A stretch of DNA of 64,000 nt from Proteus vulgaris (GTDB lineage Bacteria; Pseudomonadota; Gammaproteobacteria; Enterobacterales; Enterobacteriaceae), in assembly GCF_023100685.1 (NCBI RefSeq), contig NZ_CP090064.1, positions 2,976,001 to 3,040,000 of the forward strand. The letters run 5' to 3'. The position numbers and the translations under genes are program-made. This document shows, in pieces, positions 32,313-38,685 of this stretch (within the stretch, counting starts at the first letter, position 1; each line of letters opens with the position of its first letter). Below the pieces are notes generated by a model. The model saw only the letters and a program-made list of their open reading frames with translations, ran no database searches and was not told the origin of the DNA.

Positions 32313-33002
32313 TTATTTTTTATTTTCTTTTAGTTGGTTTTCTACAGGTGCCGTTACTTTATCTTTATTTACATTAGCACTTTCTTTGATTGAAACCACT
32401 CGTTGTTGAGCAACGGATTTAGCTTGATGTTCAACTTGCTCTGATTGCCCTGTAAAAATACCACCACGCTTAATAGACATACTTCCACAACGACTGGTAC
32501 CACGTAACTCACCATGCTCTAAAATATCTAGATTATTTGCAGCACAAATGCCTTTAACAAAACCATCAATAATAATATCAGGCGCAGTTAATTCACCTTC
32601 AACTTGTCCTGCATGCATAACACGAATAACACCATCTTTGACATTAATATTTCCTGATACTTTACCCCAAATTTGGATATCGCCATCGACATTAATATCA
32701 CCTTGGAATACCGTTCCTTTCGCAATAATAGTATACAGTTTCTGCTCTGGCATCGGTTTTTTCTCTTCTGTTATGACTGGTGTAACAGGTTCTGCTACTT
32801 TTGGTGTTTCAGTTTTACGACTAAACATAGCGGTTTTTTTTAACCTCAAAGTCATGGAATAAATAATAATGCTAAAAATTAGGATCAAGATAATCAAAAA
32901 CTCTCCTGCCATTTTAGAACGCCAAAAGGCGATTAATGCAAGAGTCCAAATTATCCATATCCCACTAAATATAATATTTCGCAGTGTCCGCTTATTCTCC
33001 AT
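32313..33002 (-). CDS. ccmA: Bactofilin CcmA, cell-curvature/swarming membrane protein
   Basis: 229 aa. Two N-terminal membrane segments (about residues 9-27 and 33-51), a linker, then a bactofilin/DUF583 beta-helix core (about 90-190) with repeating hydrophobic steps such as 'GTVFQGDINVDGDIQIWGKVSGNINVKDGVIRV' type, and a charged C-terminal tail. P. mirabilis CcmA is a known integral membrane protein whose alteration causes curved cells and swarming defects; bactofilins polymerise without nucleotide. It stands alone, with a 1-kb gap upstream. Confidence 0.85.
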   Translation of the reverse strand: MENKRTLRNIIFSGIWIIWTLALIAFWRSKMAGEFLIILILIFSIIIYSMTLRLKKTAMFSRKTETPKVAEPVTPVITEEKKPMPEQKLYTIIAKGTVFQGDINVDGDIQIWGKVSGNINVKDGVIRVMHAGQVEGELTAPDIIIDGFVKGICAANNLDILEHGELRGTSRCGSMSIKRGGIFTGQSEQVEHQAKSVAQQRVVSIKESANVNKDKVTAPVENQLKENKK

Positions 33003-34000
33003 AATTAGCTATACCCTACCTCCCTGACAATAAATACACTTATGCATTCACTATTTTAATAAATTTACGCTAAGCATGATGCCAGTAATAAGGCTATTAT
33101 TACCTTTTAGTTTATTGATTTGTCCCTTAAGAGAAATTGCATAAATAGAATAAAGCTATAAAGCTATTTATTTAAATAACCCAAATTTAATGTAAGTAAC
33201 TTGTAAAAACATCACTCTTTTTTAGATAAATATTTTTTAATACAAATTAACATCATATGTACATACTTATCTTTTTATTTAGAAAAAATATTTAAATTTA
33301 ACAAGCTCTTCTCTATTTGCTTCTACTGAAAATCTGAGACTATAGTCGCATAAATGAAAAGCAGTGAGAAAAAGAACTACCTCTTCTTAATAAGAACAAA
33401 CTTATTTTTTATTAAATTTTTGTTTTCCATTTTATAGAACTTATAAAAACGCAAGTTATAATAACGGAACGTTATTTAAAATAAATGAAATTAATTTAAT
33501 CTTAAGTTTTCTTACACACAAAAAACGCTCAATTAATCTAAAAAAACAGCAACAAATCGATATCAAATAAACTACAATTAAAAAACAAAGAATATAGTTA
33601 CATTTTAAATACACTTACTATCTCTTTACACTGTAAAGAAAAACAATAAATCCAACTATTTGTTATACAATACATTTAATAATAAAAAAATAAAGTGTAA
33701 ATTATTTATTACATAAATATGTTTAGCATCCTTTATTGTTACTGATTAAATTTTTTCTATCTTTAATTTTCTTTTGCAAATCATTAATAACATCTTAAAA
33801 TCAACAATGCTCCTTATCTTAAATTAGCAATAGAAATTCAATGTCTAATATCTAAAAAAAAACCACATCAAATTAAAGAAAACATTCTTTTTTTTATTTT
33901 TAATAGCATTTAAATAATAAAGAAGTGTTTTTATAAATACTATTATATTTATTTTTATAAAAACACAGTGATACTTATATAATGATTTTTTGGGCGAAAA
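33003..34000. other. 1-kb AT-rich gap upstream of the ExsA-like gene
   Basis: Divergent spacer between ccmA and the AraC-family gene. It contains an inverted repeat AATAACG-gaa-CGTTATT (33460-33476) and the palindrome GACTATAGTC near 33340. Otherwise homopolymeric A/T runs. No coding frame of substance. Typical of a silenced, possibly acquired locus. Confidence 0.6.
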
Positions 34001-34837
34001 ATGAATACCATACAATGTGATAATAAAAACCAATATGATTGCTTGATTCAAAAGAAATCTTATTTTTATCCACAATATCAAATACTAGAAAATGAACAAA
34101 AAGCACTCTTTATAATACGAAAAAACACACTTATTTTACAAAACTGCACTGATACAGTAACAGTTAATCAAGATCAGATTATTTTTTTACAGCAAGGTAA
34201 TTACACAATAAAAACACCCGCTACAGAACCAGCAGAGATTATTTACATACCTCTCTCTGATGATTTTTTAAGAGATTTCACATCAAAATACAATGATATT
34301 CTGAGTCAAATAGAAAGAGATGAGGATTTTTCGAGTGCATTTATCTGTTTCCAAAATTCGCCTCTTATACAGTTTTGTAGTAATGGTTTTGAATATATTA
34401 CTATTCACTCTTGCCCTGAAACATTTACACAGTTACGAATTGAAGAACTTTTAATCCTTTTGCTTTCAACAGAACAAGGCTCAGATTTAATGGCATTATT
34501 GCGCCAACTCAGTCACCGCCAAATCGATCGTTTAAAACTGTTTATGGAAAAAAATCACTTAAAAAATTGGAAACTCAAACAATTTGCTCGTGAATTTGGT
34601 ATGGGATTAACAACATTTAAAGAGCTTTTTAACCATGTCTATGGAACGTCCCCAAGAACATGGATTTGTGAAAGAAGGATCATTTATGCACATCAGTTAC
34701 TACTTACCACTGAAATGAGTATCGTTGATATATCAATGGAATCTGGTTTTTCAAGTCAATCTTACTTTACACAAAGCTACCATCGTCGTTTTAACATGAC
34801 ACCGAGCAAAGCGAGAAATCTTAGATTAAAATTATAA
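34001..34837 (+). CDS. AraC-family regulator, ExsA/LcrF-like type III secretion activator homologue
   Basis: 278 aa, the length of P. aeruginosa ExsA. The C-terminal ~100 residues hold two helix-turn-helix motifs and agree with ExsA almost word for word: 'LRQLS.R...RL.LFMEK..L..WKL..F.REFGMGLTTFKELF..VYG.SPR.WI.ERRI.YAHQLLL...MSIVDI.ME.GFSSQSYFTQSY.RRF...PS.AR'. The N-terminal self-association/ExsD-binding domain is recognisably related too (a 'WIPLS..FL..F....D.LS..ER'-like pattern, a '...LRIEELL.L' helix). ExsA activates T3SS promoters and is held inactive by ExsD; an ExsD-like gene follows at once. No secretion genes are adjacent, and possible target promoters were not identified. ExsA or LcrF/VirF orthology cannot be separated without a tree. 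Confidence 0.88.
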   Translation: MNTIQCDNKNQYDCLIQKKSYFYPQYQILENEQKALFIIRKNTLILQNCTDTVTVNQDQIIFLQQGNYTIKTPATEPAEIIYIPLSDDFLRDFTSKYNDILSQIERDEDFSSAFICFQNSPLIQFCSNGFEYITIHSCPETFTQLRIEELLILLLSTEQGSDLMALLRQLSHRQIDRLKLFMEKNHLKNWKLKQFAREFGMGLTTFKELFNHVYGTSPRTWICERRIIYAHQLLLTTEMSIVDISMESGFSSQSYFTQSYHRRFNMTPSKARNLRLKL

Positions 34838-34903
34838 AAAATCCGGTCGATTATCATAATATAAAAAAGCCATTCATCGTTAGAATGCTTAGAATTTATT
34901 CTT

Positions 34904-35797
34904 ATGAGTGAGTTGTATATCGTGATAAAAGAACATAAATTCCCTCCCCAACCTCATTATTATGACTACTTAGCATTACTAAAAAAAATGATGGCTGGCA
35001 ATGATAAAAAAACTGTAGATAGACTATTTAACCTACAGTTTTCTTTGCATATCAATGAAAATATTACTAACGAATACAATATAAACGAGCAACAGATAAA
35101 AATATTATCTCGCGTACTATGCCGTGAAAGTTTAGATAGCTTATTACAATCCACTTGGTTTTTACGGAAAAAACATTGCTTTATCGCTATTACTAAAGAG
35201 GATATTCGCGACATCATTGAGATTTCCCGTTCTTTTCATCCACCGCGGTTATATTCTGCTTTTACTGTAATGGATTGGGATCAGTCATTAAGAGCAACCG
35301 TTAATATCAATGAGCATATGCGCTTAATTCAAGCCATTATAAAACCACTTTTTATTTGGTGGGCTCAACATATTACACCTCAATTATTCACCCTTTATGA
35401 AACAAAAAAAGAGCTTGAGCTTCAAATTAAGCAATGTGAAAACATTAAGTCATTTGAAAAAAAACAATTATCAAATATAAAAGACTCTTTTCTATCTTTA
35501 GATGATATCAATATTAAACTTAGTACAGATAATGTTAGATTGATTGTCATTAATGACTTATTACAAAAAAGTATTCAGTTACTCTTAGAACATTGGGAGA
35601 CCGAACCAGTCTTTAATATTGAAATAACTAATACATTAGATTATATACGTAATGTGACACCGAATTCTGAACTATTAAAACCTTTATGGGAGATTTTAAA
35701 TAGTATTCCAGAGGCTCCTGAAAATTGTCATATACTAAAACATTGGTTATTAGAAAGGGATCTTTGTTTAAAGAATGATCTATTTTTATGGAAATAA
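34904..35797 (+). CDS. ExsD-like anti-activator
   Basis: 297 aa (P. aeruginosa ExsD 276). Soluble and helical. Two blocks match ExsD: 'INEQQIKILSRVLCRESLDSL' with 'STWFLRKK...ITKEDIRDII' (about residues 61-106), and the C-terminus 'LWEILNSIPEA...LKHWLLERDLC..ND.FLW', against ExsD's '..LWQPL...AWLHERNLC..DHFYW'. A central coiled coil (about residues 165-205, 'KKELELQIKQCENI') fits ExsD's coiled-coil arm. ExsD sequesters ExsA until ExsC releases it; neither ExsC nor ExsE is visible here. 66 bp downstream of the exsA-like gene, same strand, as in Pseudomonas. No clear ribosome site. Confidence 0.72.
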   Translation: MSELYIVIKEHKFPPQPHYYDYLALLKKMMAGNDKKTVDRLFNLQFSLHINENITNEYNINEQQIKILSRVLCRESLDSLLQSTWFLRKKHCFIAITKEDIRDIIEISRSFHPPRLYSAFTVMDWDQSLRATVNINEHMRLIQAIIKPLFIWWAQHITPQLFTLYETKKELELQIKQCENIKSFEKKQLSNIKDSFLSLDDINIKLSTDNVRLIVINDLLQKSIQLLLEHWETEPVFNIEITNTLDYIRNVTPNSELLKPLWEILNSIPEAPENCHILKHWLLERDLCLKNDLFLWK

Positions 35798-35803
35798 ATA
35801 AAA

Positions 35804-35836
35804 ATCAGCTCTTCTTTTAAAGAAAAAAGAGCTGAT
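35804..35836. terminator. Hairpin between the ExsD-like gene and the coiled-coil gene
   Basis: ATCAGCTCTT and AAGAGCTGAT, perfect 10-bp arms, A/T-rich loop, separating two convergent genes. Confidence 0.65.
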
Positions 35837-35840
35837 ACTA

Positions 35841-35871
35841 TCATTTAATCATTTAATCATTTAATCATTTA
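35841..35871. repeat. Tandem octamer TCATTTAA, 3.9 copies
   Basis: Four head-to-tail copies of TCATTTAA (last truncated by one base) end exactly at the stop codon of the minus-strand coiled-coil gene. A simple-sequence tract of this type can vary by slippage, though it lies outside the coding sequence. Confidence 0.85.
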
Positions 35872-38685
35872 TTTAACGTCTAAAACTTCAATTGTCACAA
35901 TAGACATTGATTCCGGTGGTACTTGTCCAGGAACACCATTTTTCCCATAGCCACCACCTGGTTTTATATAAATTTTAGCTTTACCATTGATACCAGCTTT
36001 AGCAATAAAGGTATTCAGTGGTAATGGTAGTTGGCGGTAAGGTAAAGTAAGTGGTTTAGCTTTATCATAATTAAGCGTTACAGTCCCGTCAGTTAACTCT
36101 TCATGCATCGTAAATATAACCGTTTTACCTGCAATTGAATCAACAGGTTTACCCTGTTTTAAAATTTTAAAATAGGTATTATCGTCATACTGTATATAAT
36201 TTTGTTTTTGAATCTCAGATAGAATAGACTTATTGCGTTGAGCATTATCTTTACCAATAATTGAATAAGCATAAGCAAGTTGCCCTGCGATCATTTGCCC
36301 TTCACCTGCTATTTTCTCAAGCTGCTCTTTCAATGTTTTATTTTCTTTTAATACATTGCTTGTCTCAGTATTAGCTTTCGCTAATTCAGCTTCTTTTGCC
36401 TTAATTTTCTCGTTTAATTGCGTACTCTTTTCTTCTAAAGATTGAGTTAATGCACGTTGAGTTTCAAGCTGTTTAGTGATATCAAGCATCTCTTTTTGGG
36501 TGTCAGCTAATGTCTTTTCTTGCTGTTTTGATTGCCCAATTGCTTCTGTTTGCTGTTGCTTTAACACACTAATTTGCTGTGTGCTTTCTATATTTTGTTT
36601 TTCTAATTGTGCTTTTACATCAGCTAATTGATTACTTAATTTATCAACAGCATTTTGTTTTTCAGTAAGCTGCTTTTCCAATAATGCAGAGGCCTTGGCA
36701 CTTTCTGTTTGACTCACTGTTAATTGTGCTAATGCAATATTACTTTCTTTAAATTGCGTATCTAATGCTTGATATTTAGCTGACAATTCATTTTGTGCTT
36801 TTTCTAATTTAGCAATTAAATTATTTTTATCTGTAATTAAATTATCAACCGCTTTTTCACCTGCAGATAAGTTTTTTTTCAGGTCAGCTAATTCTGTTAT
36901 TTTACTCTCTAATTGTAATTTTAATTCTGGTATAGCTTTCAGCTTTTCATCAGCCTGCTCTTTTTGCTGTTGAACAGCTAAAAGTGAGTTATTAAGTTGA
37001 GTTTGTTCTTGGTTATTCTTTTCAACTTGTGTTTTTAATTGTGCTATCTCTTGACGTTGTTCATCAACAAGTTTGTTATTAGCATCTTGTTGTTTTTCTG
37101 CATCTGCTACTTTTAATGCAAGCTCTTTAGATAAATCTTCACGTTCTGATGTGATTTTCAATAATGTACTTTGTAGTTTCTCTATCTCTTTTTTCGCAGT
37201 ATTATCTTTTAATAAAGATTGTGCCTGCACAAACTGAGATTGAATATCTTCTTTTTCTTTTTTAATGGTTGCTAATTGGCTCTGTACATCAGCCAGTTGC
37301 TTGGCCAAATTAGTTTGTTCATTGGTTATTGTCGATAACGACTTTTCTAATGCTATTATTTCTTTATTTTTTACAGCTTCTAGCTTGGCTAATTCTTGTT
37401 CTTTTTGTTCACGACTACCTTGGAGTAATTGTTCAGCTTGTACATATTGAGCTTGGACATTTTCTTTTTCTTGCTCGATTTTAGTCAATAATGTTTGTTT
37501 TTCATTTAATTGACTTAATAGTTTTTCTTGTTCGGCTTTCGTACTCTCAAGTAACTTTTGTAACTTATCAATTTCTTTTTTAGCACTATCATCTTTTAGT
37601 AGCGCTTGAGCCTGCAAATACTGAGATTGTAATTGCTCTTTTTCTTGCTCAAGTTGAGTAAACTTCACTTCTAAATTTTTAAGTGTTTCTGATTGTTTTT
37701 CGAAATCTTGTTGTTGTTTTGCTAGCTCTGTGTTTTTTGCAGTTGTTGCACTTAACACGTTTTCTTTATCGGCTAATTGCTTAATTAATAAATCACGTTC
37801 TTCTTTTGTTTCTTTCAGGTCTGTTTGTAGCTTGGCAACAGCTTGTTTCAATGTATCATCATTGAGTAAGTTATTTGCAGTCGCTAATTTTTCTTCTGTT
37901 TCAGCCAGCGATAGTTCCAATTGCTTAATTTGGTTATTCGCATTTTGAAGTTTTTCTAAATGTTCCTTTAACGCTAGTGTTTGCTCTGTATATTTCTGAT
38001 ACAGAGTTTGATATTTATTTCTTGTGTCGGCTAAACGATTCAACAACGTTTTATTAAAAAGAGGTTGTTTATGATCGAGCACAGAGCGATTAAATTGATA
38101 TACAAAATGGAAAGGAATTGCAGTCACAGAATAAAATGTGCCTGGAATAATATCTAATAATAAATTTTGATTTTGTTGAGGTTTTGAATAGCTTTCTTTC
38201 GAATAAAGCGCTAATGGATTATAGACCGTCGCATTATTTCTATACTGATATCGATTAAGATCTTCGGGTGTAAACTGAGGTTTAATCGGAACAAATGAGA
38301 GTAATGGGGTCAAATAACGAGTATTATCACTCTTAAATTTAGAATAATCTGAAGGTAAGACTGGGCAATTTTCAGCCAGCGTGATATCAGGTGTCTTTAC
38401 AGGCTCGACAACCTGATTATCTATTTCTGCTGGTGTAGAAGGCTTAACTCGTTGCTCTGGCTTGTTTTGTTGAGATACCGTTGTTGTACGGTTTACTCCA
38501 CGATTAGCCTGACCAGTTCTCGTTGACGATGAAATTGTAGCAGATGTTTTAGGCTCAATTTTAATTGGCTCTTGCGTTTCAAAATAACGATCAAAATCTT
38601 CAATAACAGAATTAAACTCATTATTGGCAAACGACAGTGTTGGAAACAGCATAAAAGCGAGACAAACACTCTGCTTTAATTTCAT
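35869..38685 (-). CDS. Exported giant coiled-coil protein with C-terminal FKBP-like domain
   Basis: A 938-aa protein not recognised as a whole. Signal peptide (1-20, ...TLSFA). Residues 21-105 are low-complexity, Thr/Pro/Gln-rich. Residues 105-215 form a small Tyr/Pro-rich domain. About 220-800 are continuous coiled coil, with at least four imperfect repeats of the type '[IV]Q[AS]Q[YF][VL]QAQ.LLKD..AKKEI.KLQ'. About 830-938 resemble an FKBP-type prolyl isomerase ('NTYFKILKQGKP', 'FIAKAGINGKAKIYIKPGGGYGKNGVPGQVPPESMSIVTIEVLDVK'), with the Tyr of the YGKxGVPG motif kept. Probably periplasmic or envelope-anchored through its partner lipoprotein gene 5 bp upstream. Mip-like foldase and structural tether are both possible. 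Confidence 0.75.
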   Translation of the reverse strand: MKLKQSVCLAFMLFPTLSFANNEFNSVIEDFDRYFETQEPIKIEPKTSATISSSTRTGQANRGVNRTTTVSQQNKPEQRVKPSTPAEIDNQVVEPVKTPDITLAENCPVLPSDYSKFKSDNTRYLTPLLSFVPIKPQFTPEDLNRYQYRNNATVYNPLALYSKESYSKPQQNQNLLLDIIPGTFYSVTAIPFHFVYQFNRSVLDHKQPLFNKTLLNRLADTRNKYQTLYQKYTEQTLALKEHLEKLQNANNQIKQLELSLAETEEKLATANNLLNDDTLKQAVAKLQTDLKETKEERDLLIKQLADKENVLSATTAKNTELAKQQQDFEKQSETLKNLEVKFTQLEQEKEQLQSQYLQAQALLKDDSAKKEIDKLQKLLESTKAEQEKLLSQLNEKQTLLTKIEQEKENVQAQYVQAEQLLQGSREQKEQELAKLEAVKNKEIIALEKSLSTITNEQTNLAKQLADVQSQLATIKKEKEDIQSQFVQAQSLLKDNTAKKEIEKLQSTLLKITSEREDLSKELALKVADAEKQQDANNKLVDEQRQEIAQLKTQVEKNNQEQTQLNNSLLAVQQQKEQADEKLKAIPELKLQLESKITELADLKKNLSAGEKAVDNLITDKNNLIAKLEKAQNELSAKYQALDTQFKESNIALAQLTVSQTESAKASALLEKQLTEKQNAVDKLSNQLADVKAQLEKQNIESTQQISVLKQQQTEAIGQSKQQEKTLADTQKEMLDITKQLETQRALTQSLEEKSTQLNEKIKAKEAELAKANTETSNVLKENKTLKEQLEKIAGEGQMIAGQLAYAYSIIGKDNAQRNKSILSEIQKQNYIQYDDNTYFKILKQGKPVDSIAGKTVIFTMHEELTDGTVTLNYDKAKPLTLPYRQLPLPLNTFIAKAGINGKAKIYIKPGGGYGKNGVPGQVPPESMSIVTIEVLDVK

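Follow-up and report, generated by a model that had tools for sequence, protein, structure and literature searches.

An orphan ExsA-ExsD pair in Proteus, likely left behind after the loss of a type III secretion island

The textbook account of ExsA and ExsD places them together in a single virulence switch, the ExsCDEA system of Pseudomonas aeruginosa, in which the activator ExsA is normally freed by ExsC. The gene order in Pseudomonas is exsA-exsD, and self-association of ExsD has been reported in Pseudomonas work. The VirF/LcrF activator of Yersinia serves a type III secretion system (T3SS), and we know of no ExsD partner for it. In P. aeruginosa, ExsD binds ExsA 1:1 and stops its dimerisation and promoter binding, and an N-terminal strand of ExsD is part of the contact with ExsA; seven exsD-exsA pairs were found in the same study (PMC7303211). 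The GnC and TGnnA half-sites of the promoter are read by L198, T199 and K202 of the first helix-turn-helix (HTH) motif and by Q248, Y250, T252 and R257 of the second (PMC12648661), and the spacing between the -10 and -35 elements is longer in ExsA promoters (PMC11980564). In Morganella morganii, exsA is counted among the core virulence-factor orthologues (PMC10298637). Our search of the literature on Proteus, Providencia or Xenorhabdus found no paper on an orphan ExsA or ExsD. At NCBI the Proteus protein already goes by the name of “T3SS regulon anti-activator ExsD family protein”, so the annotation is already known; the orphan state, history and retention of the pair appear to be new, as we found no description of them in the literature.

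The window, that is, the whole 64,000-nucleotide stretch of Proteus vulgaris DNA analysed here, belongs to a complete genome of 4.39 Mb. It contains exsA (34001-34837, plus strand), which encodes an AraC-family activator of 278 aa with an ExsA_N domain and two HTH motifs, and exsD (34904-35797, plus strand), which encodes an anti-activator of 297 aa; both open reading frames lie where the first-pass annotation had placed them, on the same strand and separated by a gap of 66 bp. The left neighbour is the bactofilin gene ccmA (32313-33002, minus strand; PF04519, 73 bits), and the right neighbour is a coiled-coil gene with an FKBP_C-like end (35869-38685, minus strand; PF00254, 21.3 bits with a cut-off of 21.1). 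Wherever loci of Proteus, Providencia and G128 were read, this FKBP-like gene adjoined exsA or exsD, and the length of its product differs greatly between genera. When 102 open reading frames of three relatives, all from their T3SS regions, were compared with the window, exsA and exsD were the only matches at E 0.05 and no other gene of the island was found, which bore out the orphan position proposed in the first-pass annotation. ExsE-sized open reading frames of relatives, one of which had no Pfam match, gave no match in the window either. The genome holds no second ExsA (the next AraC match was 44.5 bits) and no second ExsD above the cut-off. A recent mobile insertion of the pair was rejected since the flanking synteny is kept.

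The AraC-type protein was confirmed as ExsA by the ExsA_N domain (PF22200, 90.3 bits with a cut-off of 27), by two HTH models (HTH_18, 80 bits; HTH_AraC, 66.6 bits) and by a match to PDB 4zua, the N-domain of ExsA (E 7e-28). In the phylogenetic tree it joined ExsA and VirF in a clade of 25 rows that excluded six other AraC proteins, with a support of 94/95, which is just below the star level of the tool and comes with a warning of long branches. A placement outside the ExsA/LcrF/VirF clade was looked for and not found. The overall identity with P. aeruginosa ExsA was about 47%, and all seven DNA-contact residues were identical to those of P. aeruginosa in the 10 aligned Proteus rows. Across the 57 rows of the alignment, L198, T199, K202, Q248 and Y250 were invariant, T252 was kept in 56 (the exception is a serine in Pseudomonas fontis) and R257 was either Arg or Lys. 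VirF/LcrF shares both the AraC clade and the DNA-contact residues with Proteus ExsA. Since the contact residues are conserved, the DNA box of ExsA should be unchanged.

The identification of the second protein as ExsD also held. The N-terminal domain PF16806 was matched with 41.9 bits (cut-off 27), and the top sequence match in the PDB was 3fd9, titled ExsD (E 2e-4, residues 60-297). In the Foldseek comparison 3fd9 took ranks one and two with a probability of 1.00 and E values of 1.7e-3 and 1e-2, none of the matches being as good as E 1e-3; the absence of structural likeness, which would have spoken against ExsD, was thus not found, and the solved ExsD was the best fold match. Profile-profile comparison with five related loci gave 99.4%. 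The C-terminal model PF20905 (ExsD_C) fell short of its cut-off of 27 with 21.3 bits, and it is assigned by precomputed Pfam to most of the 53 Proteus relatives. A chance resemblance to ExsA and ExsD was rejected on these Pfam and PDB matches. The N-terminus of ExsD, which ExsA binding requires in Pseudomonas, was poorly predicted in this genome. The codon aligned with its start is no start codon in four of the 20 Proteus genomes (G399, G200, G396 and G082; loci L062, L073, L074 and L076), so exsD must begin elsewhere there. The Proteus pair resembles that of P. aeruginosa in domain make-up, in gene order, in the seven DNA-contact residues and in the fold of ExsD, but differs from it in having no adjoining T3SS genes and no detected ExsC-type (CesT) chaperone in the genome.

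ExsD is rare. The family-level sample of 392 genomes gave 12 with a match, a count that includes a spurious match in G243 and one below the cut-off in G128, and the class-level sample gave 1 of 369; these counts are lower bounds because the Pfam model misses the Morganella-like ExsD proteins (two scanned). The G243 match was rejected, as it scored 23.6 bits, had four stops inside and lay beside prophage-like genes. Strong matches to ExsA_N (at least 86 bits) occurred in 25 of the 392 family-level genomes, and nine further matches were weak (27-39 bits).

The T3SS promoters of G138 and G328 shared a layout of an A-box, GnC, six bases, TGnnA or TACAA, 21 bases and a -10 element, and a matrix was built from six such sites of these two genomes. 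With this matrix, the layout of which was fixed after the Proteus exsA-exsD gap had been looked at, a candidate ExsA-dependent promoter of exsD (34836-34886, plus strand) scored 12.9, a value reached by none of 200 shuffles. Its parts were an A-box (34836-34841), GnC (34846-34848), a weak -35 near 34855 and the -10 element TAGAAT (34881-34886); the TGnnA half-site was degenerate (CATAA). The scores ranged from 11.2 to 15.1 in the gaps of all 20 Proteus genomes, compared with 19.5-24.1 for the training sites, and in five genomes between 0 and 4 of 200 shuffles reached the observed score. Within the 17-kb locus this was the sole place matched in 20 of 20 Proteus genomes, the next being matched in 14; by a stricter scan, one of the 20 (G396) lacked GnC. 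Among window stretches of equal length, 12.9 was reached in 0.3% and 11.5, the median of the 20 genomes, in 0.6%, or in 0.95% when only AT-rich stretches are counted. Scores of 13.0-15.3 were seen at nine other places in the window, so the exsD box is not the best of the window. No significant box was found before exsD in G128, G206 and G343, and in G093 and G280 the matrix found none in the promoters of the T3SS. All 20 Proteus genomes thus carry a weak ExsA-type promoter sequence before exsD, which may be regarded as a candidate box. Promoter data from V. parahaemolyticus implicate ExsA in the control of exsD (PMC4612142), which makes retention of this link in Proteus plausible.

The pair is intact and under selection in Proteus. 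An open frame of exsD was found in 20 of 20 genomes and exsA measured 837 bp in all of them, so the possibility that the open reading frames are not real was rejected. The neighbouring genes a to l were kept in 18 of the 19 other Proteus loci, and the short contig of G082 held e to l; the outermost gene m was missing in G397 and G082. By a simple pairwise count over 12 chosen pairs, with dS near saturation in the widest, dN/dS was 0.043-0.126 for exsA and 0.11-0.32 for exsD; it was higher for exsD in 11 of the 12 pairs, at least twofold in nine. The gap between the two genes was 0.70-0.98 identical, compared with 0.37-0.88 at the fourfold sites of exsA, and was the more conserved in 7 of 7 pairs. 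The first-pass annotation had described a live or relict type III switch, and this was supported: the place is that of a relict and the genes are under purifying selection, which fits a pair that is relict in place and live in function.

The relatives provided the history of the place. Their genus labels are based on ExsA identity or tree neighbours, and the type names of the T3SS (Ysc, Inv/Mxi) on LcrV matches in two genomes and otherwise on our reading of the proteins. The nearest T3SS-bearing relatives, namely G328 and the Photorhabdus-like and Morganella-like genomes, have ExsA-ExsD in the same exsA-exsD order as Proteus. In G328, a Ysc-type T3SS with LcrV (by Pfam) and exsA-exsD starts about 1.5 kb from ccmA, and its gate gene carries two stops. 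The ExsA tree marks G093 and G280 as Morganella-like; in both, exsA-exsD and a Ysc-type T3SS adjoin ccmA and also the genes that flank ccmA in Proteus; LcrV was found by Pfam in G093, and the gate gene of G280 is split into two pieces. Hence these three genomes have a T3SS beside the same ccmA, whereas no other island gene was found at this place in Proteus. In G206 and G343, from the genus of G093, the place holds only exsA, exsD and the remnant of one T3SS gene (42% over 67 residues in G343). An ABC transporter set lies between exsA and ccmA in G206 (L127, 11118-13292) and likewise in G343 (L128), where it occupies the site of the Ysc-type T3SS of same-genus genomes. In G128 the arrangement is that of Proteus, with ccmA on one side, the FKBP-like gene on the other, and exsA and an exsD-like gene between them; the exsD-like gene scored 20.8 bits, below the cut-off, and matched ExsD of G328 by tblastn with E 1e-8. 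The single FHIPEP match of G128 was flagellar by score, so the statement of the first-pass annotation that ExsD occurs only in the ExsCDEA cascade appears to be wrong.

ExsA_N was found in 24 of 24 Providencia-genus and 30 of 30 Xenorhabdus-genus genomes, with one genome of each (G819 and G797) in a shorter frame. In the four Providencia loci read, exsA adjoins the FKBP-like gene and exsD is absent, and the genomes contain, in addition to the flagellar gate gene, a single T3SS-like one. In the five Xenorhabdus loci read, exsA adjoins ccmA and exsD is absent; no T3SS gate gene was found in any of the five Xenorhabdus genomes examined out of the 30, each having a single flagellar-scoring FHIPEP match. 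Across all loci read, exsA was kept in every one and exsD in some. This is most simply explained by a single island beside ccmA in an ancestor, followed by several losses of the island. Because the ExsA tree leaves the order of the genera unresolved, this single ancestral gain is read from synteny and not from the tree. In our view it is likely that an ancestor of the family had a Ysc/Psc-type T3SS island next to ccmA, and that the Proteus locus, where this island has been lost, still holds its true ExsA-ExsD pair in the role of a live regulator under feedback from ExsD. With the machine of the pair gone, the switch probably serves another purpose today.

A later gain of the pair, transferred from another bacterium as a compact regulatory unit, would also place it here without an island. 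In the ExsA tree not all genera of the family come together, and T3SS-bearing Aeromonas and Pseudomonas fall among them; the full T3SS of the Photorhabdus-like G138 has none of the flanking genes of the Proteus locus nearby, as such a gain would allow. However, the flanking sets overlap in Proteus, G128, Providencia, Xenorhabdus, the Morganella-like genomes and G328, so that a later gain would need many insertions at one place, and we regard it as improbable. That the pair is a decaying relict without function, its loss still pending, appears more improbable again. The home island is gone, the dN/dS of exsD exceeds that of exsA, and exsD is absent from the nine Providencia and Xenorhabdus loci described above; yet dN/dS is well below 1 for both genes, the frames are open in 20 of 20 genomes, and the conservation of the gap above the fourfold sites of exsA is not that of decaying DNA.

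The search of the complete genome for T3SS genes that the first-pass annotation had proposed did find a system, at C1:3.88-3.91 Mb, 0.89 Mb from exsA-exsD. By our reading of its proteins it appears to be of the Inv/Mxi type. The pair might control this resident T3SS in trans, in replacement of its own lost targets. The gate gene SctV of the island and exsD were both found in 20 of 20 Proteus genomes, and the intergenic region between the AraC gene of the island and prgH scored at least 11 with the ExsA matrix in 13 of the 18 Proteus genomes examined (of 20), with a maximum of 14.4, which matches the level at exsD. Nevertheless, GnC was seen by eye, with one base of slack, in none of the prgH sites of these 18 genomes, and the -10 part was not conserved. 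The sites coincide with a conserved A-tract/T-tract element, perhaps similar to a MxiE box, that adjoins the AraC gene of the island (C1:3903152) and is better explained by that gene. The AraC protein of the island shares the AraC HTH with ExsA, but it has no ExsA_N match and lies outside the ExsA clade. The best ExsA site in the 37 kb around the island scored 15.0, not above the highest background score of the window, 15.3. Stops or frame changes disrupt SctV in two of the 20 Proteus genomes (G402:C1 and G404:C1), while exsD is open there, and ExsA persists in Xenorhabdus although no T3SS gate gene was found in the genomes examined (5/5). Control of the resident T3SS, which is unlikely on these grounds, was dropped as unsupported by the scan of the island and the prgH sites, and the distant T3SS suggested in the first-pass annotation fared poorly with it. 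Its other suggestion, that the pair was rewired to other targets, remained the better option, but box scans of the window and of the 37 kb at the resident T3SS indicated no target besides exsD.

Returning to the pair as a retained regulator, we lean, with less assurance than for the loss of the island, towards ExsA having become a core regulator of the whole family that is independent of the T3SS, present in all genomes of Proteus, Providencia and Xenorhabdus that were searched and with its DNA-recognition helices unchanged after the loss of the machine it had served; Proteus ExsD would act as an ExsC-free feedback brake. Proteus ExsA would still bind the classical box and activate exsD, and ExsD, by analogy with Pseudomonas, would bind ExsA 1:1 and shut it off. 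By raising ExsD, ExsA would limit itself and behave as a self-limiting activator with negative feedback. The proposed search for exsC homologues found none, as the CesT chaperone model PF05932 had no match in this genome at E 1; the same model does detect the ExsC-like genes of G328 and G138 (52 and 64 bits). Since no ExsC was found, the release of ExsA must come from something else, which might be the ratio of ExsA to ExsD, the self-association of ExsD or a new partner. The targets besides exsD are probably not T3SS genes.

A switch that was kept while its machine was lost allows one to ask what else ExsA regulates, how ExsD works without ExsC, and by what route a virulence regulator is recruited to a new role. 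The family supplies a natural series for this purpose, with a full island, a decaying island, the regulator pair and the regulator alone. Because the recognition helices are strongly conserved, the DNA box can be predicted and the regulon should be findable by DAP-seq or ChIP-seq. The “T3SS regulon” in the database names of the Proteus proteins may mislead.

The leader between ccmA and exsA (33003-34000) agreed with the AT-rich leader of about 1 kb described in the first-pass annotation, with a length of 998 bp and 21% GC. It was 988-1101 bp long with 19-23% GC across the 20 Proteus genomes, and in seven pairs its last 200 bp were 0.73-0.91 identical, compared with 0.28-0.70 at 400-700 bp. An RNA element in the leader was dropped, since Rfam gave no match at E 1 in 32900-36000. 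About 100 bp within 33830-33990, 5' of exsA, were strongly conserved in Proteus (TGTCTAATATCT, an A-tract and AATTAAAGAAAACA); this block ends in a TATAAT-like -10 element and looks like a regulated promoter. Further upstream, the leader contains the perfect palindrome TTTACACTGTAAA (33625-33637), which was kept over the 20 Proteus genomes with C or G at its centre and was the sole match in the window with at most one mismatch, where 0.26 were expected.
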